33,850 nucleotides of DNA from Verrucomicrobiota bacterium. Its GTDB lineage: Bacteria; Verrucomicrobiota; Verrucomicrobiia; Limisphaerales; VHCN01. A model generated the notes under the pieces. The model made no database searches. It was not told the DNA's origin and was given only the letters and a program-made list of their open reading frames with translations. The stretch is from positions 1-33,850 of the forward strand of contig VHCN01000034.1 in the NCBI GenBank assembly GCA_016871675.1. The letters run 5' to 3'. Position numbers and translations under genes: made by a program. Every line of letters begins with the position of its first letter. Position 1 is the first letter of the stretch. Positions 1 to 13,122 of the stretch are shown here, in pieces.

Positions 1-84
1 TGGCCTCTCTCCGTGTGCACCAACGGCGGCGCAAAGGGACGAAGTCGACTTGCGCACGGTCGCCGAGTCGTGTTCCATGAGGCC

Positions 85-876
85 ATGAAACCCCACGCGA
101 CCCAAGGTCAGTTGTTGTTGCTGGTGACGATCGGAGTGTCCCTCACCAGCGGGTGCATGACAGTCCCGGAGACAGGACGGCGGCAGTTGAACCTCATACC
201 GCGGCAAGCCGAGATGGAACTGGGCATATCCAGCTTCAACCAGATGAAGAGCCAGTCCCGGCTCAGCGCGGACGCCGGCCTGCAGGCGATGGTGCAGCGG
301 GTGGGCCGGCGGATCGCCGCGGTCGCGCCGTTGCAGGGTGCGCAGTGGGAGTTTGTGGTCGTGGAGAACAATGAGGCGAACGCCTTCTGCATGCCCGGTG
401 GCAAAGTGGCGGTATACACCGGCATACTCCCCATCACGAAGGACGAAGCGGGACTCGCCGCGGTGATGGGCCACGAAGTCGCGCACGCGGTGGCTCGGCA
501 TGGGGCCGCACGTATCAGCGAGGCGATGATGTTTCAACTGGGAGCTCAGATGCTCAACCAGGCACTCGCGAGCAGTGATCCGCGCACCCGCGCCGCATGG
601 ACCCAAGCCTACGGACTCGGGACGACTCTCGGCTGGGAACTTCCTCATAATCGCACTCAAGAATCCGAGGCGGACAAACTCGGCCTGCTCTACATGGCGC
701 GTGCCGGCTACGACCCCGAGGAAGCCGTGAAGTTCTGGCAACGGTTTGCCGCCTACAACAAAAGCCGCGGTGGCGGCCAACTCTGGTTTTTGCGAACGCA
801 CCCCGTGGACGAGAAGCGGATTGCCGATTTACAGAAGGCGATGCCGGAAGCCAAAGCGCAGTTCCGCCCCAAGTAG
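85..876 (+). CDS. M48 family metalloprotease, predicted lipoprotein
   Basis: This is a zinc metallopeptidase of the M48 family, in the BepA/LoiP/YcaL-like group that handles outer-membrane proteins in the periplasm. The HEVAH zinc motif lies at residues 130-134 and the ExxxD third-ligand motif (E193 to D197) about 60 residues later. The NEANAFCMPGG segment at 96-106 is also typical. The ATG at 85 is chosen over an in-frame ATG at 13 because it starts directly before a hydrophobic stretch (residues 10-20) ending in a lipobox-like TSGC with Cys24, and a GAGG sits just upstream. The mature protein would be a lipid-anchored 240-residue peptidase, a normal size for a stand-alone M48 domain without TPR repeats. 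It converges on the cytochrome gene that ends at 920 and has no obvious operon partner in the window. The family is firm; the substrate is not known. Confidence 0.9.
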   Translation: MKPHATQGQLLLLVTIGVSLTSGCMTVPETGRRQLNLIPRQAEMELGISSFNQMKSQSRLSADAGLQAMVQRVGRRIAAVAPLQGAQWEFVVVENNEANAFCMPGGKVAVYTGILPITKDEAGLAAVMGHEVAHAVARHGAARISEAMMFQLGAQMLNQALASSDPRTRAAWTQAYGLGTTLGWELPHNRTQESEADKLGLLYMARAGYDPEEAVKFWQRFAAYNKSRGGGQLWFLRTHPVDEKRIADLQKAMPEAKAQFRPK

Positions 877-2116: not shown

Positions 2117-3421
2117 ATGCAACCCCTCATTGACAAGGCGCAAGCCGCGCTTGGCGGAAACCTTGGCCTGACGCTGGGGTGTTTGATCATCGCCGCACTC
2201 GCCGTTCAAGTGCTCGTGATGCTGGCGTCAACCCTCCGTCGCGTCGTCGGCGAGGGAACCCAGCGCACACTCGAGCGCGAACGGCTTGAACTCCTCGTCA
2301 AGTCTGCCCGTTCCGAGTGGCAGGACAAGCAGGCGGCCAAGGATCTCTGGAATGGTTACCGGAAGTTCACCGTCTCGAAGAAAATCAAGGAATGCGACGG
2401 CGTGTATTCGTTTCACCTCGCGCCGCATGATGGCAAGCCGTTGCCGCCGTTCAAGCCGGGCCAGTATCTCACTTTCTCGCTCGATGTTCCCGGCCGCGAC
2501 AAGCCCGTGGTGCGCTGCTATTCGCTCAGCGACGGCCCGATTCACACCACGCACTACCGCGTGACCATCAAGAAGGAAGGCCCTCCCGCAGACAAACCGG
2601 ACCTCCCGCCGGGCGTGGCGTCGAGCTACTTCTGCGACGCGGTCAAGGAAGGCGACATCCTCAACGTCAAGGCGCCGACCGGGCACTTCTACCTCGACAT
2701 GGCCAAGCCGAATCCCATCGTGCTGCTCGGAGGGGGCATCGGCGTGACGCCGATGTTGAGCATGGCGAAGGCCGTCGCGGCGAGTGGTTCGAAGCGCGAA
2801 GTGTGGTTCTTCTACGGCGTCCGCAGCACGCAGGAGCACATGTTGAAGGAGGAAATCCAGACGCTCGCCGAGGCTCATGACAACATCCGGTTGCACGTGT
2901 GCTACAGCCGGCCGGGCAAAGGAGACGTCAAGGGACGCGACTACCACCACGCCTCGCGCGTGACGCCGGAGTTGCTCAAGGAACTGCTGCCGTCGAACAA
3001 CTACGAATACTACCTGTGCGGCGCCGGGCCCTTCATGCAGACCCTCAACGAGGGGCTCGAAAGTTGGGGCGTGCCCGAAAAGGAAATCCACTACGAGGCG
3101 TTCGGACCGGCCACGGTGAAGAAGAAAGCGCCCCCGAGGACTGCGAGCGAAACGGCATTCCTCTCCAAGTTTACCGTCACATTCAGCAAGTCCGGCAAGA
3201 CGTGCGGCTGGGATCCCAGCGCGGAGAACGTGCTGAAGTTCGCGCAGGCGCAAGGCGTGCACATCGACTCCGGCTGCTGCACCGGCGGCTGCGGCTCGTG
3301 CGTGGTCGCCGTCAAGGGAGGCAAGTTCAAGCACACGAAAGATCCTGACAACCCGCCCGAGGCCGGGTCCTGCCTCACGTGCATCGCGCAGCCCGCGGGC
3401 GACCTCGTGCTCGACGCCTGA
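2117..3421 (+). CDS. Membrane-anchored FAD/NAD(P)H reductase with C-terminal [2Fe-2S] domain
   Basis: This is a predicted inner-membrane flavoprotein that passes electrons between NAD(P)H and a [2Fe-2S] cluster. One N-terminal helix (about residues 17-38) is followed by RR, which puts the catalytic part in the cytoplasm. The ferredoxin-reductase FAD domain carries RCYS at 133-136. The nucleotide domain has GGGIGVTPM at 205-213 and CGAGPFM at 301-307. The plant-type ferredoxin domain at the C-terminus has C387, C392, C395 and C422 (CX4CX2C...C). The order FAD, NAD, then Fe-S is that of Hcr- and dioxygenase-reductase-like proteins; NqrF has its Fe-S domain first. An anchor helix followed by an FNR module does recall NqrF, but no other Nqr subunits are nearby. 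It is first in the operon, 18 bases before the next gene, and is the likely electron entry or exit point. Confidence 0.88.
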   Translation: MQPLIDKAQAALGGNLGLTLGCLIIAALAVQVLVMLASTLRRVVGEGTQRTLERERLELLVKSARSEWQDKQAAKDLWNGYRKFTVSKKIKECDGVYSFHLAPHDGKPLPPFKPGQYLTFSLDVPGRDKPVVRCYSLSDGPIHTTHYRVTIKKEGPPADKPDLPPGVASSYFCDAVKEGDILNVKAPTGHFYLDMAKPNPIVLLGGGIGVTPMLSMAKAVAASGSKREVWFFYGVRSTQEHMLKEEIQTLAEAHDNIRLHVCYSRPGKGDVKGRDYHHASRVTPELLKELLPSNNYEYYLCGAGPFMQTLNEGLESWGVPEKEIHYEAFGPATVKKKAPPRTASETAFLSKFTVTFSKSGKTCGWDPSAENVLKFAQAQGVHIDSGCCTGGCGSCVVAVKGGKFKHTKDPDNPPEAGSCLTCIAQPAGDLVLDA

Positions 3422-3439
3422 CGCCCCCGAGCGCCGACG

Positions 3440-5149
3440 ATGAGCGAAACCCCGACCATCATCCAGCGACCCGGACGATTCGACAATCCGTTCGAGCCCG
3501 AAGGATTGGGCGACGCGCAGGTCGCAAGACTTCTCAAGGTTGCGCCGTTCAAGGAGATGGACCCGAATGGATTTCCGAAGCGCACCTCGCTCGCGGACAT
3601 CCTCAAGCACGACATGCGCGTGCGGACCTTCGGCAAGGGCGAACTCATTGTGCGCGCGGGCGACTACGGCACGTCGGCGTTCATGGTGTTGAGCGGGTCC
3701 GTGCGCGTCGTGTTGCAGCCAGGCCTGCCCAACTCCGTGCTCGGGCGGCGCGAGACCCGCAAGGTCGGCTGGTTCCGCGCCTTCGCGCAATTGTGGTCCA
3801 ACTCCAAACAGCCCGAGATCCGAACACCGAGCCAGCTCAAGCAGGATTCGCGCGTTGCCGCCCGCCAGGCCGGCAAGGAAGTGAAGGTCTTCCTTCAAGA
3901 TGTCCCCCGCGTGCTCGACGAGCATCGCACGTCGGAAATGCAGGCCGGCGAATTCTTCGGCGAACTCGCCGCGCTGACCCGGTCGCCGCGCAGTGCGACG
4001 GTCTTTGCCGCGGCTGAGGGCACCGAGATGCTCGAAGTCCGCTGGCAGGGCTTGCGCGACCTGATGAGATACGACGAAAGCCTGCGGAAGCACATCGAAG
4101 AAACCTACCGCGAGCGGGCGCTCGCCACGCATCTGCGCGAGATTCCCTGCTTCGGCCACCTCACACCTGAACAACTGATGCTTGTGATGGCCGAGACCGA
4201 ATTCGCCACCCACGGTGACTACGAATGGTCCAAGGGCGCGAGCAGCGCCAGGACGCAGGAAACCGTCATCGCAAGCGAGGGCGATTATCCGAATGGCGTC
4301 GTGCTCATCCGCTCCGGCTTCGCGCGGCTCAGCCAGAAGTTCGGCAACGGCCAGCGGACTCTGAATTACCTGGGCGCGGGCCGCGACTACGGTTTCGCTG
4401 AAATCGCGCACAACTTCCGCAACAAGGACAACCCCGTCACCCTTCAGCACTCGCTCAGCGTCATCGGCTACACGCACGTCATCGTCATCCCCACCCGCGT
4501 GATGGAACAGGTGGTCCTGCCGACCTTGCCGGCAGACTTGATCCCCGAGTTGACCGGGGCTCCCGCCGCCCGTGGCGATTTCGAGGCCGCCGCCGAGGCG
4601 GACGCCGGCGCGCACATCGGACCTGACGTGATGGAATTCCTGACGGAGCACCGCTACTTCAACGGCTCCGCGACGATGCTCATCGACCTGGAGCGTTGCA
4701 CCCGCTGTGACGATTGCGTGCGCGCCTGCGCCTCCACTCACGACAACAACCCGCGGTTCCTTCGGCACGGCCCGACCAACGGCCGCATCATGGTCGCCAA
4801 TGCCTGCATGCACTGCGCCGACCCGGTATGCATGATCGGCTGCCCGACGGGCGCCATCCACCGCGAGTCCTTCGCCGGGCAGGTCACCATCAACCAGGCC
4901 ACGTGCATCGGCTGCACCGCTTGTGCGAACCAGTGCCCTTACGAGGCTATTCGCATGGTCGACGTGCGCGACGGGGACGGGAACTTCATCCTGGACGAGG
5001 CCATGCGACCGATCATCAAGGCCACGAAGTGCGACCTCTGCGTCGAGCAATACGGCGGACCGGCCTGCGAGCGCGCGTGCCCGCACTCGGCGCTCGTGCG
5101 GATGAACATGAACAACCTCGACGCATTCGCCCGCTGGCTCCGACGATGA
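3440..5149 (+). CDS. Tandem cNMP-binding domains fused to four-cluster [4Fe-4S] ferredoxin
   Basis: This 569-residue soluble protein joins a sensor to an electron-transfer module. The first cyclic-nucleotide-binding fold spans about 60-210 and is split by an insert at 95-165. Its phosphate-binding cassette looks intact: FGELAAL at 173-179 with E175, and RSAT at 184-187 with R184. A second fold at about 275-365 has lost the cassette arginine. Residues 420-547 hold sixteen cysteines in four groups: C420/423/426/430, C456/459/464/468, C489/492/495/499 and C531/534/543/547. This matches the NrfC/DmsB/PsrB-type electron-transfer subunit with four [4Fe-4S] clusters. No HTH is seen, so it is not a Crp-type regulator. 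Its TGA overlaps the next ATG, so the membrane cytochrome is translationally coupled. The inferred role is a wire between the flavoprotein and cytochrome b, possibly gated by a cyclic nucleotide. Confidence 0.9.
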   Translation: MSETPTIIQRPGRFDNPFEPEGLGDAQVARLLKVAPFKEMDPNGFPKRTSLADILKHDMRVRTFGKGELIVRAGDYGTSAFMVLSGSVRVVLQPGLPNSVLGRRETRKVGWFRAFAQLWSNSKQPEIRTPSQLKQDSRVAARQAGKEVKVFLQDVPRVLDEHRTSEMQAGEFFGELAALTRSPRSATVFAAAEGTEMLEVRWQGLRDLMRYDESLRKHIEETYRERALATHLREIPCFGHLTPEQLMLVMAETEFATHGDYEWSKGASSARTQETVIASEGDYPNGVVLIRSGFARLSQKFGNGQRTLNYLGAGRDYGFAEIAHNFRNKDNPVTLQHSLSVIGYTHVIVIPTRVMEQVVLPTLPADLIPELTGAPAARGDFEAAAEADAGAHIGPDVMEFLTEHRYFNGSATMLIDLERCTRCDDCVRACASTHDNNPRFLRHGPTNGRIMVANACMHCADPVCMIGCPTGAIHRESFAGQVTINQATCIGCTACANQCPYEAIRMVDVRDGDGNFILDEAMRPIIKATKCDLCVEQYGGPACERACPHSALVRMNMNNLDAFARWLRR

Positions 5150-6015
5150 ACGCGTTCGCCAATCGCAGGTGGCTCGCCGTGCTGATGCTCATCGCGGCGA
5201 TCGTCGGACTCCTCACCGTTTGGCGCGAGTTCGACGTGTTCATCCCGCGCATGCCGTATCTCACGGGCTGGGTGCTGCTGCTGCTCATGCTCTTTCTGAC
5301 ACTCTACAACGGCCGCAAGAAGCTTCCGTTTCTTCCCGCAATCCGGTCGGAGACGTGGCTGCAGGTGCACATCTACGTCGGCTTGTTCACGGCCGCACTG
5401 TTCGCCGTCCACCTGGGCATGCGCATGCCCACGGGATGGTTCGAGTGCACGCTTGCGTGGCTTTACGTGCTCGTGATGCTCAGTGGCATCGGCGGGCTCT
5501 TCATTTCGCGCATCTTTCCGAAACGCCTCACCACACGCGGGGGCGAAGTGTTGTTTGAGTCCATCCCGGCCGTGCGCCGCGCGCTGGCCGAACAGGCCGA
5601 ATCGCTCGCCCTCAAGGCCTTGCCCGCCGCGAAAAGCGCGACGATCACCGAGTTCTACGTCGCGCACCTCCAGCACTGGTTCGCCGCGCCCCGGAACACT
5701 CTTGCCCACTTATTCGAAATCAGCAGTCCGCTCAACAAGCTCCTCCACCGCATCGGCGAATTGGATCGCTTCCTCAACGACGAGGAGCGCAAGCTCATGT
5801 TTGGCGAAGAGGTCGAAGCGGGTGAGGAGCCCAAACAGCACATACCTGGTATCGCCGACCTTGTCCGGCAGAAGGACGCGCTCGACTATCATTACTCGCT
5901 CCAGCTCACGCTCAAGCTCTGGCTGTTCGTCCACATCCCGCTCACTTACAGCCTGCTGGTTTTCTCGCTCGTCCACGTCGTGCTGGTGTTCGCTTTCATG
6001 GGAGGCACGTCATGA
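5146..6015 (+). CDS. Five-helix membrane protein, probable diheme cytochrome b
   Basis: This 289-residue protein has five predicted membrane helices at about 10-26, 40-54, 73-91, 101-121 and 257-285. A cytoplasmic domain of roughly 135 residues lies between helices 4 and 5. Helix 3 carries H75 and H89 and helix 5 carries H263 and H277. Both pairs have thirteen residues between them, which is the spacing that lets two helices hold two stacked b hemes in cytochrome b and related proteins. Charge distribution puts the N-terminus in the cytoplasm, so helices 3 and 5 run in parallel. The ATG at 5146 overlaps the stop of the Fe-S gene, and its own TGA overlaps the next ATG. The long open frame upstream of this start is a shadow of the preceding gene. 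The likely role is to move electrons across the membrane; no family name was recognised. Confidence 0.8.
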   Translation: MNAFANRRWLAVLMLIAAIVGLLTVWREFDVFIPRMPYLTGWVLLLLMLFLTLYNGRKKLPFLPAIRSETWLQVHIYVGLFTAALFAVHLGMRMPTGWFECTLAWLYVLVMLSGIGGLFISRIFPKRLTTRGGEVLFESIPAVRRALAEQAESLALKALPAAKSATITEFYVAHLQHWFAAPRNTLAHLFEISSPLNKLLHRIGELDRFLNDEERKLMFGEEVEAGEEPKQHIPGIADLVRQKDALDYHYSLQLTLKLWLFVHIPLTYSLLVFSLVHVVLVFAFMGGTS

Positions 6016-7742
6016 GCGAACCGCTGCAACCGCCGGGATTTGACGCCGACCAATACGCGCGCCCCAACCAGAACTGGGTTTGCGGCTACGCCTGCGAAGG
6101 GCGCGCCTGCAAACTCGGGCCAGGACCAGGCGGCGAATGTCGCGCCACCGCCGAGTGCAAACCCGTCCTAGATCTCAAGCCCGGTGAAACCAAAGGCCGC
6201 TGGCGTTGCACCCGGTCGAAAAACCAGGGCGGCGCGTGTGAATTGGGGCCGGGCCCCGACGGCACCTGCTGTCGTCCCCTGCCCCGCTGTTCACCCGTTC
6301 GCAGCCTGCGCGTGCGGCGCGGGCGACTCACCCTCGCCGTCACGGCGCTCACCGTCGGCGCGCTGCTGGTCCTGCTCTACGGACCGTGGCGCCTCACGTT
6401 CATCAACCCGGGCCCGGTTTCCTCTCACCACACGGGCAAGGCGTTTGCCGAATTGCTTCGCGAACAATCAAAGGGCGCGCCCAAGTCTGCCGCGCTTGCC
6501 GCGAGCGCGTTCGGGGCGGACCAAGGTTGCGCCGTCTGCCACACCGAGGCGCTCGCCGGCCCGGCGGGATGGCTGAAGGCGGCCTTCACGGTGAAACCCG
6601 GGCCGTTCGAAGTGAACAAACTTGCCGCGGTATCGCGGGCTGAGATGACCTCCATCGATCGCGCGTGCCTCAAGTGCCACAAGGATCACACGTTCCACCA
6701 ACCCAACGTCGTGCGCGACCATTCGTGTTCATCGTGCCACCGGGAGCACCTCACCAGCGGACACATGCGAAAGCCGGAGGATGCGCAATGCCTCTCGTGC
6801 CACGGCGACGGCGCCACGATGCAAGCCTCGGCTGCGAAGGGCCGAGAAATCGCCGCCAAGCGGCCAAGCGAATTTGAATACCGTTCGCACCTCGGCCCTC
6901 ATGTGTTTGGGGTGCCGCGTCCGACCAATGGCTACACAAAGGTCTTCGCCTCGTTCGCCGGCGACCACCCCGAATTCCAAGTGCACGCGGACAAGCTGAG
7001 CGATACGAATCCGCTCCGCTTCAACCATGCGCTGCACTTCTCCTCGACGGTGCCTCCGATCAATGGCAGGAAACTCGACTGCGCGAGCTGCCATGAGCCG
7101 GATGCCTCGGGCGCGTATTATCGCAGGGTGAATTTCGAGCGACACTGCCGCAAGTGCCACTCACTTCAATTCGATGCGGGCAATCCGCAACTTCAGCTCC
7201 CACACGGGAACGAAACCTTCGTGCGCTCGTTTCTGCGCAGCCTGCCCGCGCACTACGCGGAGCTCGCCCGCCGCGAACACAAGCTGAGCCGCGCGGAGGA
7301 AATCGCACGGTTCGTCGCCCGCAGCATGAGTGGCCTCACGGAGCGGTTTGAATCAGGCGAAGGACTCGAGCGCCGCGTCTTCATGAGCACTGAGCGCTGG
7401 GCGCCCGTCGCGAGTGTGGGAGGCTCACCCACGCTCGGCGCCGCGCCTTTTGCCGGTTGCGCGTGGTGTCACAAAGTAACGGAGTCTCCGGGCACGGTTC
7501 CGCCGCAATTCGAAGTCGCCCGCCCTTCGATGCCGGAGCGGTGGATGCCTCGCGGGAGTTTCAACCACGCAAAGCACCAGCACCTCGACTGCGCCAAGTG
7601 CCACGACGTCGCCCGCAGCAGTGTCACCGCGGATGTCAACCTCCCGCGCAAGGCCCTGTGCGCCGAGTGCCACAGCCCGAAGGGCGGCGTCGTGCATTCA
7701 TGCTCGACCTGCCATTCGTTCCATACGACGCACCGGCGGTGA
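6012..7742 (+). CDS. Membrane-anchored decaheme cytochrome c with duplicated Cys-rich head
   Basis: This 576-residue protein has ten CXXCH heme sites, starting at residues 173, 219, 239, 260, 357, 379, 483, 527, 550 and 564. One helix at about 106-123 anchors it, with the heme part in the periplasm. The cytoplasmic head (residues 20-95) has ten cysteines in two repeats: W..C24..C33..C43..C49 and W..C66..C76..C86..C93. Each repeat contains the phrase LGPGP followed by a Gly-rich turn and Cys. The head may bind zinc or an Fe-S cluster; that is inference. The gene is last in the operon and its ATG overlaps the cytochrome b stop. It is the likely periplasmic terminus of the chain and could hand electrons to the divergent tetraheme protein. 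It resembles the loosely defined cytochrome c3/multiheme families but was not matched to a named enzyme. Confidence 0.9.
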   Translation: MSEPLQPPGFDADQYARPNQNWVCGYACEGRACKLGPGPGGECRATAECKPVLDLKPGETKGRWRCTRSKNQGGACELGPGPDGTCCRPLPRCSPVRSLRVRRGRLTLAVTALTVGALLVLLYGPWRLTFINPGPVSSHHTGKAFAELLREQSKGAPKSAALAASAFGADQGCAVCHTEALAGPAGWLKAAFTVKPGPFEVNKLAAVSRAEMTSIDRACLKCHKDHTFHQPNVVRDHSCSSCHREHLTSGHMRKPEDAQCLSCHGDGATMQASAAKGREIAAKRPSEFEYRSHLGPHVFGVPRPTNGYTKVFASFAGDHPEFQVHADKLSDTNPLRFNHALHFSSTVPPINGRKLDCASCHEPDASGAYYRRVNFERHCRKCHSLQFDAGNPQLQLPHGNETFVRSFLRSLPAHYAELARREHKLSRAEEIARFVARSMSGLTERFESGEGLERRVFMSTERWAPVASVGGSPTLGAAPFAGCAWCHKVTESPGTVPPQFEVARPSMPERWMPRGSFNHAKHQHLDCAKCHDVARSSVTADVNLPRKALCAECHSPKGGVVHSCSTCHSFHTTHRR

Positions 7743-7788: not shown

Positions 7789-9522
7789 TCATCCCAGTCG
7801 CGCCAGTTCCCCGCGCACCAGTTCCACGAGCGGCCGGGCAGTCGCGCGGCTGAAGTCGAACCGGCATCCCGCGGTGGCGAAGAGCTCCGGGAGCGGGCGC
7901 GACCCGCCGAGCGTGAGGCCGGCCTTGTAATCGCGCAGCGCCCGCGTCTTGTCCCGGCGCGAGTTGGCCCACACTTGCAGCGCGCCCAGCTGCGCAATGC
8001 CGTATTCCACATAATAGAATGGGTGGAGAAAGATGTGCAGTTGCTTGTGCCAGTAGTTCGCGCGAGCCGGCTCGTGCCCGGACCAGTCCACGTCGCCGCC
8101 GAAGCGCTCCATCAAGTCCACCCAAGCCGCAGTGCGCTCCGCGCGCGTGTGACCGGGATGCGTGTAGATCCAGTGCTGGAACGCGTCGATCGTCGCCATC
8201 CACGGGAAGAAGTTGATGATGCCTTCGAGATGCGTCTTGCGGGCGCGGTTCGCTTCGGACGCCCCGTAAAACTCCTCGAGGAATTCAGCGCCGAGCAACT
8301 CCATCGCCATCGAGGCCACCTCGCAGAACTCGATCGGCGCGCCGCGATAGGCGAACAGGTCTTCCTCGCGCGTGGCCACCGCGTGAAAGGCGTGGCCGGC
8401 CTCGTGCAGCATCGTGTCCACGTCGCGCTGAAGCCCGACGGCGTTCATGAAGATGAATGGCAGTCGTGATTCCGAGAGCGTGGATTGGTATCCACCCGGC
8501 GCCTTGCCCTTCCGGTTTGCCAGGTCGAGCAGCTTGAGATCCTGCATCATCCGGAATTGCCGGCCGAGTCCGCCGGCGTCCACCTTGTCGAAGATGCGCT
8601 GTGAACGCTCCACCAGTTGCGGCACATCCTCGAAGGGCCGCAGCGCGGGGCGATTCAGTGCGTCCACCGCGGTGTCCCACGGGCGCAGCGACGAGATGCC
8701 GAGGTGGCGCTTTCGCTCGGCTTGCAACTGTCGCACCACGGGCATGAACTCCGTCTCGACCGCCTCGTGGAACTTCACGCAATCCGCCGGCGTGTAATCA
8801 AAGCGCCCCCGCAGCTTGAAGGCGTAGTCGCGGTAATTCGCGAAGCCCGCGTTCTTCGCCATCTGCTCGCGCAGCGCCATTTGCTGCTCAAAGATGGTCT
8901 CGAACTTGTCCGCCTCGGCGAGGCGCCGGCTCGCGACGAGTGTCCAGGCTTCCTCGCGCAGCGGGCGGTCAGGCTCCTCGAGATAACGCGCCATCTGGAC
9001 CAGCGTGCGCTCCTCGCCGCGGAAAGTCACCGTGAGCGCGCCCGCGAGCTTCTGGTATTGCTGGCCGAGCTTGGCCTCCTGGGTCTCGAGCGGCACGTTG
9101 GCCTCGCGATAGAGGTCGACGCGCAACTGCGTGTCCCGGTCGAAGACCGCGTAACGCGGCCGTGGCAACAGCGCGCGCAGCGGATGCGCGAGGTAAAGCT
9201 GCGCGAGCTTGAACTGCCGCGTCTTGAGTTCCGGCTCGATCTTCTCGACGAAATGCAAAAACGCGGACTCGGCGCCCGGGTCCTCCGTGTGGCACGTCAT
9301 GCCGATGTAACGCTTCGAGCCCTCCTCCTCAAGTGCCGCGGCCAGTTCGCCGCCGTCGATCAGCCAGCGCTCGAACTCCGCCACGCTGCCGCACCCGGCG
9401 GCGCGCTCTTCGAGCCGGTCATAGAGCGGCGCCACCTGCAGCCAGTCCCCGAGGTCAATGGTCTGCGGGACGAACGCGCGCGGTGTGTGGACGGGGAGTT
9501 TTCCGAACGGCAGCAAACTCAT
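7789..9522 (-). CDS. M3 family oligoendopeptidase
   Basis: This is a cytoplasmic zinc peptidase of the M3 family (oligoendopeptidase F/thimet type), which cuts short peptides. The signature HEAGH lies at residues 373-377 within MLHEAGHAFHA. A following IEFCEVASMAMELL segment at 397-410 supplies the third zinc ligand, a glutamate. The 577-residue length and the all-helical N-terminal half (about 1-340) fit the family. The ATG at 9522 starts close to the first conserved part, and no signal peptide is seen. It is the last gene of a minus-strand run of hydrolases, but a 232-base gap separates it from the amidohydrolase, so it may have its own promoter. The substrate cannot be read from the sequence. 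Confidence 0.92.
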   Translation of the reverse strand: MSLLPFGKLPVHTPRAFVPQTIDLGDWLQVAPLYDRLEERAAGCGSVAEFERWLIDGGELAAALEEEGSKRYIGMTCHTEDPGAESAFLHFVEKIEPELKTRQFKLAQLYLAHPLRALLPRPRYAVFDRDTQLRVDLYREANVPLETQEAKLGQQYQKLAGALTVTFRGEERTLVQMARYLEEPDRPLREEAWTLVASRRLAEADKFETIFEQQMALREQMAKNAGFANYRDYAFKLRGRFDYTPADCVKFHEAVETEFMPVVRQLQAERKRHLGISSLRPWDTAVDALNRPALRPFEDVPQLVERSQRIFDKVDAGGLGRQFRMMQDLKLLDLANRKGKAPGGYQSTLSESRLPFIFMNAVGLQRDVDTMLHEAGHAFHAVATREEDLFAYRGAPIEFCEVASMAMELLGAEFLEEFYGASEANRARKTHLEGIINFFPWMATIDAFQHWIYTHPGHTRAERTAAWVDLMERFGGDVDWSGHEPARANYWHKQLHIFLHPFYYVEYGIAQLGALQVWANSRRDKTRALRDYKAGLTLGGSRPLPELFATAGCRFDFSRATARPLVELVRGELARLG

Positions 9523-9589
9523 GCGCGGGACGATGCGGGGTCAACCGGGCCAATCCAAGCCGGAAGTGGTCAATCAGGCGCTCGTGCGG

Positions 9590-9754
9590 TCACTTCTTCA
9601 AGAGTGCAGCAACCCTGTCACGGGTGGCGGGCGTGATCTTTTCAGGCCGCGGCTCGACCCCGATGACGAGATTGATCACTTGCGTTTGGATCCTGCGGCC
9701 CGGCTCCGGTTCCAGGACCTGACCTGCCGTCTTGGCCGCGCGGGGGTGCGGAGT
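9590..9754 (-). other. Coding-like 54-codon stretch after the amidohydrolase stop
   Basis: Directly after the amidohydrolase TGA, the same frame stays open for 54 codons and ends at a TGA at 9590-9592. The translated text contains QTQVINLVIGVEP and ends RVAALLKK, which reads more like a natural C-terminus than random GC-rich frame. No ATG is present; a GTG lies in the middle. It may be the tail of a decayed gene, a short GTG-started peptide or chance. Apart from this, the gap from 9523 to 9754 shows nothing recognisable. Confidence 0.2.
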
Positions 9755-10786
9755 TCAACGATATGGGCCCCGGAGAACTGTCCCCGGTCGCTTGGGAAGG
9801 GGCGCGGGGCCAGCCGGGGCGCCGGCGAAGAACACTGTTTCCGCGGTCTTGCGCAACATCCAGTCGCGGTCGGAAGGTGAAAGGAAGTCCAGCCGTTCGC
9901 GCACGAGCGAGAGCGAGGCAGCGTAGGTGTGCGCGCCCTGCACTTGATACGGACAGTCGCTCGCCCACATCAGCCGCTTCGCGCCGAAGGCGTCGCGCAC
10001 CCGGCGGATCATCGGCGCGAGGTCCAGATACGGCGCGGCCTTGCGGCCAAGCGCGTAGAAGGCGGAGGTTTTCACGAACGTTTTCGGAAACTTCGCCAGC
10101 GCGCACAAGAGAGCAAGCTCGCCGTCGAGAATCTGCCCCGTGACGCCGATGCGCGCGAAGTGATCCACAACGACGTGCGTGCGCGGGAACTTGGAGCACA
10201 TGACCGCGAGCGCAGGCAACGCCGCGGGATTGATGAGCGGGCAGATGGCGAGATTCTCGTCCGCGGCGGTGGCCCACATCGTCGCCATGCCGGAAGAGCC
10301 CAGCCACGCGTCCGGTGCGAGCCGTCCCGGGGAGATGCGGAAGCCGCGGACGCCCTGCTTCGCCAGGTCGCGCATCGCGTCGCGCACGCGCGGCGCGTTC
10401 TCGTCCACGATCCCCACGCCGCTGAAGACGCCGGGGAAGCGCCGCATCGCGTCGAGCATGTAGCGGTTGTCGTGGTGGTAGAAGCTCATCTGAATGAGCA
10501 CGACTCGCGAAACCCCGTTCGGCCTCGCGATCGCCAGCAACTCCTCCGGCGTGAAGCTCGGCGGCTGCATGTCCTTTACCGCGAATCCTTCCGCGAGCGG
10601 AAACGACTTCGTGTCCGGCGTCCATACGTGCACATGCGCGTCCACGTGGCCTGGCGCGCCGCCTTCGCCGACGATGGTCTCGCAGCCGGAGAGCGCTCCC
10701 GTCGCCAGCGCGGCGGCGGATGCCTTCATGAAGGTGCGGCGGGACGGGGCTGGCGAATCGGCCGTGTGCATGCGTGATGGAAACAC
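9755..10786 (-). CDS. Amidohydrolase-family protein, Tat/lipoprotein signal
   Basis: This is a TIM-barrel metal-dependent hydrolase of the amidohydrolase-2 type (related to 2-pyrone-4,6-dicarboxylate lactonase and uracil-5-carboxylate decarboxylase relatives). The HVDAHVHVW motif at residues 47-55 gives the strand-1 HxH metal site. VVDHFAR supplies a later His, and LMWASDCPY the family's conserved Asp near the end. The N-terminus has a twin-arginine motif, SRRTFMK, then a hydrophobic segment and the lipobox LSGC, so the protein is probably exported folded and lipid-anchored. The start may be the ATG at 10786 or the one five codons later at 10771. It sits 63 bases after the M20 peptidase gene and may be in the same transcript. 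The substrate is unknown. Confidence 0.85.
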   Translation of the reverse strand: MFPSRMHTADSPAPSRRTFMKASAAALATGALSGCETIVGEGGAPGHVDAHVHVWTPDTKSFPLAEGFAVKDMQPPSFTPEELLAIARPNGVSRVVLIQMSFYHHDNRYMLDAMRRFPGVFSGVGIVDENAPRVRDAMRDLAKQGVRGFRISPGRLAPDAWLGSSGMATMWATAADENLAICPLINPAALPALAVMCSKFPRTHVVVDHFARIGVTGQILDGELALLCALAKFPKTFVKTSAFYALGRKAAPYLDLAPMIRRVRDAFGAKRLMWASDCPYQVQGAHTYAASLSLVRERLDFLSPSDRDWMLRKTAETVFFAGAPAGPAPLPKRPGTVLRGPYR

Positions 10787-10849
10787 TGCACGGGGTCGCG
10801 CGTCAACGCGCTGCGAAGGCGCTGGAATCCCTCGCGCCGCGCCTGCCCG

Positions 10850-11992
10850 CTACTCGAAGCGCAGCATAAACTGCCGGTAGAACTCGAACGCCGCCTCCAC
10901 CTGGTCGCACTCGACGTATTCCACCGCCGCGTGCGCGCGGTCAATGCTGCCCGGCCCGATGAGGATGCTCGGCAATCCCTGCCTCGACAGCTTGCTCGCG
11001 TCACTTCCGAAGGGCACACCGCACGGTTCGCCGTTCAGCCGCAAGCCGCGCAGGATTTCCGATGCGAGGCGCACCGGGGCGGCGTCGGCTGGAGTCGAGA
11101 GTCCTTCGTCGCGCGTGCGGGGCGGAAGTTGCTCGACGTTCAAGCCAGGCGCATCCGCCTTCAGCCGGTCGAGCATTCGCTGATAACCCGCGAGAACGTC
11201 GTCGGGCTTCTCGCCGGGCAGCAGTCGGCGGTCAATCTCGATGGTGCACTCGTCGGGGACGAAGTTCACCTGCACGCCGCCCGAGACGAGTCCGACGTTG
11301 AGCGTGCCGGGGCCGAGCAGCGGATGCTGCCGCGCGGCGAGCGCCCGGTGCTCCTCCTCAAACGCAAGTATCACCCGCGCCATGTGGCTGATTGCGTTGA
11401 CGCCGAGGTGGGGCTTGCTGCTGTGCGCCGCCCTGCCCCGCGCCACGACCTTCCAGCGCAGCACGCCCTTGCCCGCGATGACGACGCGCATGTCCGTCGG
11501 CTCCGCCACCACCGCGGCCTGCCCCGTGAGCCCCTCGCAGAACTTCACCACTCCGCGATACGAGTATTCCTCGTCCACCGCGGCGCAAAGCAGCACCTCG
11601 CACGGCGGCGTGATGCCATCGCGCTTGAGCGAGGCGAGCGCGTGCATCATCGCGCACAACCCGCCCTTGTCGTCGCACGAGCCGCGGCCAAAGAGTTTTC
11701 CGTCGGCGACCGTGGGCTCGAACGGTGGAATCGTCATGCCGGAGATGGCGACGGTGTCGGTGTGCGCCTCGAACACGATGCGTTTGCCGGGCACGCGGCC
11801 GGGCAGGCGCGCGACGACGTTCGGTCGGTCGGGAAAGACTTCCTGGTCATGCGTCTCGATGCCGCGTTGCGCGAAGAAGTCACGGATGTAAGCCGCGATG
11901 AACTTCTCCGGTCGCCCACCCGGATACGAGGGACTGACGCTGTTGATGCGGACGAGTTCGGCGAGAGTGTCGAGAAGGCGTGGCTCGGCCAT
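10850..11992 (-). CDS. M20 family metallopeptidase (ArgE/DapE-like)
   Basis: This is a di-zinc amidohydrolase of the M20/ArgE/DapE/ACY1 superfamily, likely an amino-acid deacylase or peptidase of the cytoplasm. Metal and catalytic motifs are in place: AHTDT at residues 76-80 (H77, D79), GSCDDKGG at 104-111 (D107), DEE at 140-142 (the general base and a zinc ligand) and AEPTD at 163-167. The central dimerisation domain follows from about 175, with the motif RAAHSS. The ATG at 11992 is preferred to one 18 codons upstream because it gives a 380-residue protein beginning right at the conserved helix and leaves the upstream gene intact, with a 5-base gap. That spacing puts it in an operon with the alpha/beta hydrolase. 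Specificity cannot be decided here. Confidence 0.9.
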   Translation of the reverse strand: MAEPRLLDTLAELVRINSVSPSYPGGRPEKFIAAYIRDFFAQRGIETHDQEVFPDRPNVVARLPGRVPGKRIVFEAHTDTVAISGMTIPPFEPTVADGKLFGRGSCDDKGGLCAMMHALASLKRDGITPPCEVLLCAAVDEEYSYRGVVKFCEGLTGQAAVVAEPTDMRVVIAGKGVLRWKVVARGRAAHSSKPHLGVNAISHMARVILAFEEEHRALAARQHPLLGPGTLNVGLVSGGVQVNFVPDECTIEIDRRLLPGEKPDDVLAGYQRMLDRLKADAPGLNVEQLPPRTRDEGLSTPADAAPVRLASEILRGLRLNGEPCGVPFGSDASKLSRQGLPSILIGPGSIDRAHAAVEYVECDQVEAAFEFYRQFMLRFE

Positions 11993-11997
11993 GGGAA

Positions 11998-13122
11998 TCA
12001 ATGCGGCTTCAAATGCTTGTCGAACCACGCGAGGGTCTTCTCCCACATCTCCGGCAGATATTGGTGGCCGAGGCCGGGATAGAGTTCACTGGCGTAGTCC
12101 GAGTCCTTGCCGACGAGTCTCCACACCGGCCGCACCCTGGCTTCGATCGTCCGGATTCCATCCGCAGGCGAACCGCCGTCCTCTTCGCCCGTCATGAAGA
12201 GCACCGGGCGGGGCGCGATGCACGCGATGACGGCCTCCGTGTCGAAGTGGCGGAGCATGCCCGGCACGAAGTAATAGATACCGTGGGCCGAAAGCTTGCC
12301 GTGAGCCGTGAGGTTTTGGTAACGGGTGAGGCACGCGACCGGCACGCCGGTCTTCAGGCGGTCATCGAGCGCCAAAAGCCACCACGCGCGTGTCGCGCCC
12401 ATGCTGAAGCCCGTCACGCCGACGCGCGCCGCATCCACCTCCGGCCGCGAACAGACGTAGTCGAGCGCCATCAGGTCATCGCGCAACATCATTCCCCAAA
12501 GCGACCGGCCGAGCCACAGGTTGAACTTGCTCGCGGTCATCTCGCCCGCGCCGCCCTTCTCGTTCGGGCCGCCCGGACCCTTCCCGTCGCGTTCGCCGAA
12601 GCAGTAGGCGTCAATCGCGATCACCACGAAGCCGCGCCTTGCCAGTTCCGGTCCCGGCGCGACCGGCACGGGATTGCCCGCGATGAACAACTCCTCCTTG
12701 CCGCCCTTGCCATATTGGCCGCCGTGCTGATGGCAGTAGAGAATCGCCGGCGCCTTCTTGCGGGCGCTCGCAGCCTTCGGCACAAGCAAGTAACCCGGCA
12801 CGGTCGCGCCCGCGCCGTTGTCGAACTGAAACTTCTCCACCACGAAGTCTCCCCGGTCTTCACGCGAAAGGGTCTTCACAGGAAAGCCCGCCGGTCGTGG
12901 CGGGAGTTCACCCAGCAACCGGCCGAGCGTGGCTCGAATCTCCCCGCGGCGGCGGGTCCACGCCGCCTTCGTCTCCGGCACGGTGAATTCCGGCACCTGC
13001 CGTGCCGCGCCGAGCCAGCGCGCGCCTTCGTGGATGTTGGTCTGGCCCATCAGCGTAAAAGTCCCGACGAGCAACACGATGCCAATCCCGGGCCCTGGGC
13101 GAAGTGGGGTGGTGGAAATCAT
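11998..13122 (-). CDS. Secreted alpha/beta hydrolase (acetyl-xylan-esterase/dienelactone-hydrolase-like)
   Basis: This 374-residue alpha/beta hydrolase has an N-terminal hydrophobic signal segment (about 11-25). The nucleophile elbow is GFSMG at 238-242 with Ser240. A likely acid lies in TGEEDGG at 311-317, and the catalytic His is H353 in LGHQY. The oxyanion region is YCHQHGGQ at 129-136. Large secreted esterases of this shape are common in Verrucomicrobiota next to polysaccharide-degradation genes, but no glycoside hydrolase is adjacent here. It heads the minus-strand run that continues with the M20 peptidase 5 bases later. It may be a carbohydrate esterase or a peptidase-like hydrolase; the sequence does not decide. 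Confidence 0.82.
   Translation of the reverse strand: MISTTPLRPGPGIGIVLLVGTFTLMGQTNIHEGARWLGAARQVPEFTVPETKAAWTRRRGEIRATLGRLLGELPPRPAGFPVKTLSREDRGDFVVEKFQFDNGAGATVPGYLLVPKAASARKKAPAILYCHQHGGQYGKGGKEELFIAGNPVPVAPGPELARRGFVVIAIDAYCFGERDGKGPGGPNEKGGAGEMTASKFNLWLGRSLWGMMLRDDLMALDYVCSRPEVDAARVGVTGFSMGATRAWWLLALDDRLKTGVPVACLTRYQNLTAHGKLSAHGIYYFVPGMLRHFDTEAVIACIAPRPVLFMTGEEDGGSPADGIRTIEARVRPVWRLVGKDSDYASELYPGLGHQYLPEMWEKTLAWFDKHLKPH

Follow-up and report, generated by a model that had tools for sequence, protein, structure and literature searches.

A conserved five-gene module from Verrucomicrobiota as a candidate inner-membrane entry to an extracellular electron transfer system

The window analysed here, a stretch of 33,850 nucleotides from a Verrucomicrobiota bacterium (contig VHCN01000034.1), carries an operon of four genes, A, B, C and D, together with a fifth gene, X. 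The products of A-B-C-D and X probably make up the inner-membrane and periplasmic part of an electron conduit that crosses the cell envelope (we assign this a probability of about 0.6). This reading is supported by the topology of the proteins, by their cofactor complement and by co-occurrence. In its best form, which we hold with the same confidence, the unit would be the inner-membrane entry of a new extracellular electron transfer (EET) system that is fed by NAD(P)H and possibly gated by a cyclic nucleotide. Gene content, gene order and cofactor ligands of the unit are conserved, and the unit co-occurs with a set of outer-membrane proteins.

Gene layout of the window

An earlier note on this DNA had described one operon of four genes with ATGA overlaps. 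The positions of the four ORFs, their arrangement and the overlaps were all confirmed in the sequence: A, B, C and D are intact ORFs of a true operon, in which B and C overlap at 5146, C and D overlap at 6012 and the gap between A and B measures 18 bases. Third-position GC is 0.77-0.85 and identity across phyla is 35-65%, which rules out chance. The features and their coordinates are:

X, 920 to about 2107, minus strand: secreted tetraheme c554-like cytochrome with three CXXCH motifs and one CX4CH motif (PF13435, E = 5.8e-11)
A, 2117 to 3421, plus strand: membrane-anchored FAD / NAD(P)H / [2Fe-2S] reductase (FAD_binding_6, NAD_binding_1, Fer2)
B, 3440 to 5149, plus strand: cyclic-nucleotide-binding domains and a four-cluster [4Fe-4S] ferredoxin (PF00027, E = 5.2e-22; Fer4 families)
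C, 5146 to 6015, plus strand: membrane protein with two predicted bis-His heme-b sites and a cytosolic helical insert (from alignment, conservation and AlphaFold)
D, 6012 to 7742, plus strand: cytosolic eight-cysteine domain, one TM helix and a periplasmic ten-heme domain (ten CXXCH)
D residues 24-93, 6081 to 6290, plus strand: two four-cysteine repeats without a known family

The start codon of X is uncertain, as its ORF opens at 2209 and overlaps A. The flanks (13-876, plus strand, and 7789-13122, minus strand) encode an M48 peptidase, an M3 peptidase, an amidohydrolase, an M20 peptidase and an abhydrolase, which are unrelated to the operon. Scans of the window for tRNAs and Rfam families found nothing.

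Conservation of the unit across genomes

Within the phylum, C was found in 12 of the 241 Verrucomicrobiota genomes searched. A search of genome contigs with an alignment of B gave 537 tblastn relatives, and the best 80 of these 537 were fetched; the rest may include plain ferredoxins. After three duplicates had been taken out, 90 loci were scored. All non-duplicate loci that have B, C and D show the order B-C-D on a single strand (87/87), and the carriers belong to Verrucomicrobiota, Planctomycetota, Alphaproteobacteria, Nitrospinota, SAR324 and others. The complete set of A, B, C, D and X was present in 74 of the 90 loci. X stands divergent from A-B-C-D in the most frequent layout (53 loci, nearly all from Verrucomicrobiota) and lies inside the operon, as A-X-B-C-D, in 11 loci, including some from SAR324, Nitrospinota and Latescibacterota. 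Since X is retained in one or the other position across loci, it belongs to the unit. The four genes proposed earlier are therefore real members of the set, which has to be extended by a fifth. The genes stay together in relatives, a check that the earlier note had called for, and the order and content shared over the 90 loci support one conserved unit. Viral contigs were searched for relatives of B and none were found. In genome G121, each of the two copies of the module (L021 and L024) contains genes interrupted by frame breaks, which reflects either sequencing errors or decay.

Two Verrucomicrobiota genomes, G013 and G167, keep a shorter B-C-D together with the outer-membrane pair P2/M10 described below and have no adjacent A. 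No homologue of A was found in G013 at E <= 1e-20; G167 has one elsewhere in its genome that is only 30% identical. Input of NAD(P)H through A is therefore not obligatory. Of the NAD(P)H-to-periplasm wire suggested earlier, the parts capable of carrying electrons across the membrane stand, but the module may take its electrons from NAD(P)H and from other sources as well; in these two genomes, a different donor such as ferredoxin or a quinol would need to supply B or C. The same loci bear on a reading in which the b hemes of C trade electrons with the menaquinone pool and A and B form an accessory or regulatory branch. Retention of B-C-D without A agrees with such a quinone link, as does the fact that the known inner-membrane entries of EET, CymA, CbcL and ImcH, are quinone-linked (PMC6295460). 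On the other hand, A is retained in nearly all loci with its FAD/NAD/[2Fe-2S] set intact, and the four-cluster B is retained even where A has been lost. We consider a quinone-linked module possible but doubtful.

Cofactor sites of the five proteins

A begins with a single N-terminal hydrophobic segment, which is followed by the Pfam domains FAD_binding_6, NAD_binding_1 and Fer2. Its RxYS motif is kept in 80 of 81 homologues and the cysteine pattern of Fer2 in 78 of 81. With all three domains and their motifs in place, A is predicted to be an NAD(P)H-dependent FAD/[2Fe-2S] reductase, and the hydrophobic segment bears out the membrane anchor that had been assigned to it. The four heme motifs of X, whether this gene is divergent from A or within the operon, were found in 76 of 77 homologues.

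The description of B as a cNMP-domain protein with four [4Fe-4S] motifs is borne out by Pfam matches and by conservation. The cNMP_binding family matched in three stretches, which by eye correspond to two domains, and each of the 16 cysteines of the four CxxCx(2-8)CxxxC clusters is kept in 89 or 90 of 90 homologues. In the first cyclic-nucleotide pocket, G174, E175 and R184 are present in 89 of 89 aligned rows, as part of a predicted phosphate-binding cassette with Glu and Arg (FGE..A...PRxAT). The second domain, judged by eye, lacks the Arg motif. Six matches to class III cyclases were found in the window's genome, which may thus be able to supply a cyclic-nucleotide signal. The intact pocket suggests that the wire might be gated by cAMP or cGMP, and the cyclase matches would fit such gating. 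The C-terminal part of B matched the HydN model with 66.9 bits (E = 1.5e-18), which is under the cut-off of 260.

C carries two histidine pairs, H75/H89 and H263/H277, each spaced by 14 residues within a hydrophobic helix, and the four histidines are kept in 86-89 of 89 homologues. An AlphaFold model made from 67 sequences (mean pLDDT 93.7) has one pair in helix 68-89 and the other in helix 236-288. Such an arrangement of two His pairs is typical of two-heme cytochromes b. Judged by its His spacing, C fits the pattern of a two-heme membrane cytochrome b (NOX/FRE, b561 or CbcL-like), in agreement with the earlier assignment as a diheme-type membrane protein. No Pfam family reached the cut-off for C, the best being DUF4079 below it with E = 0.009. 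A PDB sequence search with C gave no match, and a PHROGs search gave nothing for C or D. Foldseek and VIA searches of the PDB with the model of C returned only helical-bundle matches (TorS sensor, ABC exporters), which were taken as no assignment.

D has a single TM segment at about 103-131, ahead of ten CXXCH motifs, as expected for the ten-heme cytochrome that had been described. Ten motifs were counted in 81 of 86 D rows; fewer were present in the remaining five, of which the inspected ones are cut off by a contig end. A new feature was found before the TM segment, namely two four-cysteine repeats (C24, C33, C43, C49 and C66, C76, C86, C93), whose eight cysteines are invariant in 84 of 84 sequences. 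Pfam gave no match in this Cys-rich stretch. R100 and R103, which are also invariant, lie directly ahead of the membrane and, by the positive-inside rule, place the Cys domain in the cytosol. Likewise, the distribution of positive charges in the sequences predicts A, B and the Cys domain of D to be inside and the hemes of D to be outside. The only two D proteins without the Cys domain (L025, L026) come from both genomes whose loci lack A.

Candidate outer-membrane partner sets

Clustering the neighbours of distant loci revealed recurring envelope proteins and no recurring catalytic enzyme. In Verrucomicrobiota loci, D is often followed by P2 (~800 aa) and M10 (~1300 aa, ten hemes, LVIVD repeats), which were seen in 36 and 30 fetched loci, respectively. 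A gene for an HbpS-like protein (PF03928), which may serve in heme sensing, chaperoning or degradation, lies near the module in 32 loci, close to P2/M10. In the window's genome, this trio is located on contig C61 and not beside the operon; there (L111, 11700-14132, minus strand), the HbpS-like gene adjoins the P2/M10 pair. P2 and M10 match exactly the same 7 of 241 phylum genomes, all of them among the 12 with C (hypergeometric p = 9e-11 over the 241 genomes, uncorrected for their relatedness). Among 22 further module genomes without M10 in the fetched flanks, M10 was found elsewhere in 21. The remaining one is a bin labelled Acetobacteraceae, probably through misbinning; its locus L088 (PLSD01000112.1) has a Verrucomicrobiota-type module with 62% identity in B, and the bin is without M10. 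By adjacency, by the 7/7 within 12/241 and by the 21/22, the inner-membrane module is genetically linked to the P2/M10 pair.

The model of P2, weak overall with a mean pLDDT of 56, shows 18 long strands, with strand regions mostly at pLDDT 80-90; the PDB entry that it matches best is AlgE, an alginate exporter (E = 1.4e-15). The window genome's own P2 had no match in Pfam, and M10 matched only short heme domains and LVIVD. P2 is thus a predicted outer-membrane beta-barrel encoded directly ahead of the multiheme M10, both in Verrucomicrobiota loci and on the genome's own C61. Because an 18-strand barrel of the AlgE type is narrower than MtrB, a cytochrome may not fit inside P2.

The module of other phyla, and that of some Opitutaceae, adjoins genes for M5, a cytochrome with five hemes, and P1, a protein of ~480 aa. 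In Hwanghaeella grinnelliae Gri0909 (L102), for instance, a stretch of ~12 kb contains A, B, C, D, X, M5 and P1. Of 8 genomes that were reached by way of loci, 7 had M5 elsewhere. No M5 match was obtained in three g14 genomes and in L083 although the module is present, and P1, P2 and M10 were not found in the three g14 genomes either. P1 has no detectable homology to P2 and no match in Pfam or the PDB; it may be a barrel. In the tree of B, a single branch (support 100) divides the P1-partnered from the P2-partnered modules, so that one inner module is paired with two different outer sets. One Opitutaceae bin, PLKS01 (palsa_1470; L082, L104), has both a P2-partnered and a P1-partnered module. 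Acidic repeats of the DDxLL / EEGDSLLD kind were noticed in long D proteins of the P1 lineage (L019, L020, L021) and in M5 near the N-terminus (L093, L104), and are possibly a docking motif common to D and M5. Separately, contig C27 of the window's genome (L148:7005-7811) carries a seven-heme Paired_CXXCH cytochrome that adjoins an 804-aa gene with one CXXCH; no recognised porin was found beside this cytochrome.

Instead of serving an outer-membrane assembly, D and X could supply electrons to a reductase or peroxidase in the periplasm; the outer pair would then be a separate system that happens to be in the same genomes. This would fit the location of P2/M10 on another contig in the window's genome as well as the three g14 genomes with the module and without P1, M5, P2 and M10. 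However, P2-M10 directly adjoin D in many loci, the co-occurrence stands at 7/7 and 21/22 and no catalytic neighbour recurs, which makes a path confined to the periplasm unlikely. We judge it very improbable that the module is a split ferric reductase working with a surface heme or iron receptor and helped by the HbpS-like protein. A and C do resemble the NOX/FRE electron path (H-x13-H pairs), and the HbpS-like gene lies beside P2/M10 in 32 loci, but the ten- and four-heme wires plus a ten-heme secreted cytochrome far exceed the needs of ferric-siderophore reduction, and no TonB-type gene is among the recurring neighbours. The earlier note had called the endpoint of the wire unknown. The consistent set of partners indicates that the endpoint is probably the outer membrane or the outside of the cell.

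Proposed electron route

Assuming that the unit is an outward conduit, NAD(P)H would reduce FAD and then the [2Fe-2S] cluster in A, which would pass electrons to the four [4Fe-4S] clusters of B. From there, the b hemes of C, two in number, would carry them across the inner membrane to the ten c hemes of D. D would hand them over to X, with its four c hemes, and X to the outer-membrane assembly, which would be formed by P2 as an AlgE-like barrel and M10 as a ten-heme cytochrome with LVIVD repeats (contig C61) in the window's genome and by M5 and P1 in other phyla. In the final step, electrons would be transferred to an extracellular acceptor, for which humics or Fe(III) are natural guesses. Binding of cAMP or cGMP at the intact pocket of B might switch the wire. 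We infer the physical complex, this route, its outward direction, the acceptor and the gating from the conserved features of the unit. Only tentatively do we go further and propose a quinone-independent, cyclic-nucleotide-gated NAD(P)H:extracellular oxidoreductase with interchangeable, unrelated outer conduits, in which the eight-cysteine domain of D, a putative metal domain with Zn or Fe-S, is a part of the wire or its switch.

The same parts function both ways, and the porin-cytochrome systems PioAB and MtoAB run inward (PMC6344600). An inward conduit would oxidize a donor at the outer membrane, such as Fe(II), reduced humics or a partner cell, and make NAD(P)H by way of D, C, B and A. However, NAD+ reduction from donors at ~0 mV needs energy and the unit has no proton- or ion-pump subunit; moreover, the carriers inspected belong mostly to heterotrophic lineages. 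We therefore regard the inward direction as improbable and return to the outward conduit. If this reading is true, soil and lake Verrucomicrobiota as well as marine Planctomycetota and Alphaproteobacteria could dump (or take up) electrons. What is known of EET comes largely from a small number of metal reducers, and the entry points characterised so far are fed from quinones. The Verrucomicrobiota carriers, which are abundant and mostly uncultured, would have an undescribed route out of the cell, which would matter for the balance of fermentation and the loss of carbon at anoxic sites rich in humics.

Comparison with known systems

Single parts of the module resemble known proteins. The C-terminal part of B is similar to four-cluster ferredoxins of the NrfC/HydN/DmsB type. 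In contrast to these, B carries a fusion to cyclic-nucleotide-binding domains whose pocket is intact, and it is paired with C instead of NrfD or a molybdoenzyme. The NOX/FRE path is alike in that electrons pass from an FAD/NAD(P)H domain in the cytosol to a stacked pair of b hemes, held by two helices that each carry two His ~14 residues apart. Here, however, the path is split over separate proteins, five TM helices are predicted, an Fe-S carrier is inserted and a c-type wire lies outside. No sequence or fold match of C to NOX/FRE was found in the Pfam, PDB and fold searches.

CymA, CbcL and ImcH, which are quinone-fed inner-membrane quinol oxidases of EET (PMC6295460), share with the module that inner-membrane multiheme or b/c-type proteins feed periplasmic cytochromes. 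According to the earlier note, no characterised complex of such composition is known, and the literature searched (of partial coverage, with most subscription papers outside it) likewise held no description of the gene combination. To our knowledge, none of the CymA, CbcL and ImcH entries contains both an FAD/NAD/[2Fe-2S] reductase and a cNMP-[4Fe-4S] protein.

For Verrucomicrobia from bogs, He et al. (2017, PMC5615132) described a porin together with an eight-heme cytochrome (porin-MHC), which have homologues in IMCC26134; the inner-membrane step was given only as 'ET in IM'. That system is found in the same phylum as the window's module, and the two share one organism, as IMCC26134 (L074) carries the module with P2/M10. 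Another locus of IMCC26134 (L149:7150-10271, G140:C1) encodes a membrane protein with six hemes and, downstream of it, a 269-aa cytochrome with seven CXXCH and immediately after this a 763-aa protein that matched nothing in Pfam. Matched by description only, this heptaheme and 763-aa pair is likely the porin-MHC of He et al. An identification of P2/M10 with the porin-MHC was dropped, because this other locus fits their description better; set apart by description, P2/M10 seems to be another system.

The overall plan of the conduit is most familiar from the porin-cytochrome systems of EET (MtrCAB; OmbB-OmaB-OmcB of Geobacter), which are alike in having a periplasmic multiheme cytochrome, an outer-membrane barrel and a large cytochrome. 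In contrast to these systems, P2 is AlgE-like with 18 strands, M10 bears LVIVD repeats, and the inner-membrane entry would be built from NAD(P)H, Fe-S and b-heme carriers.
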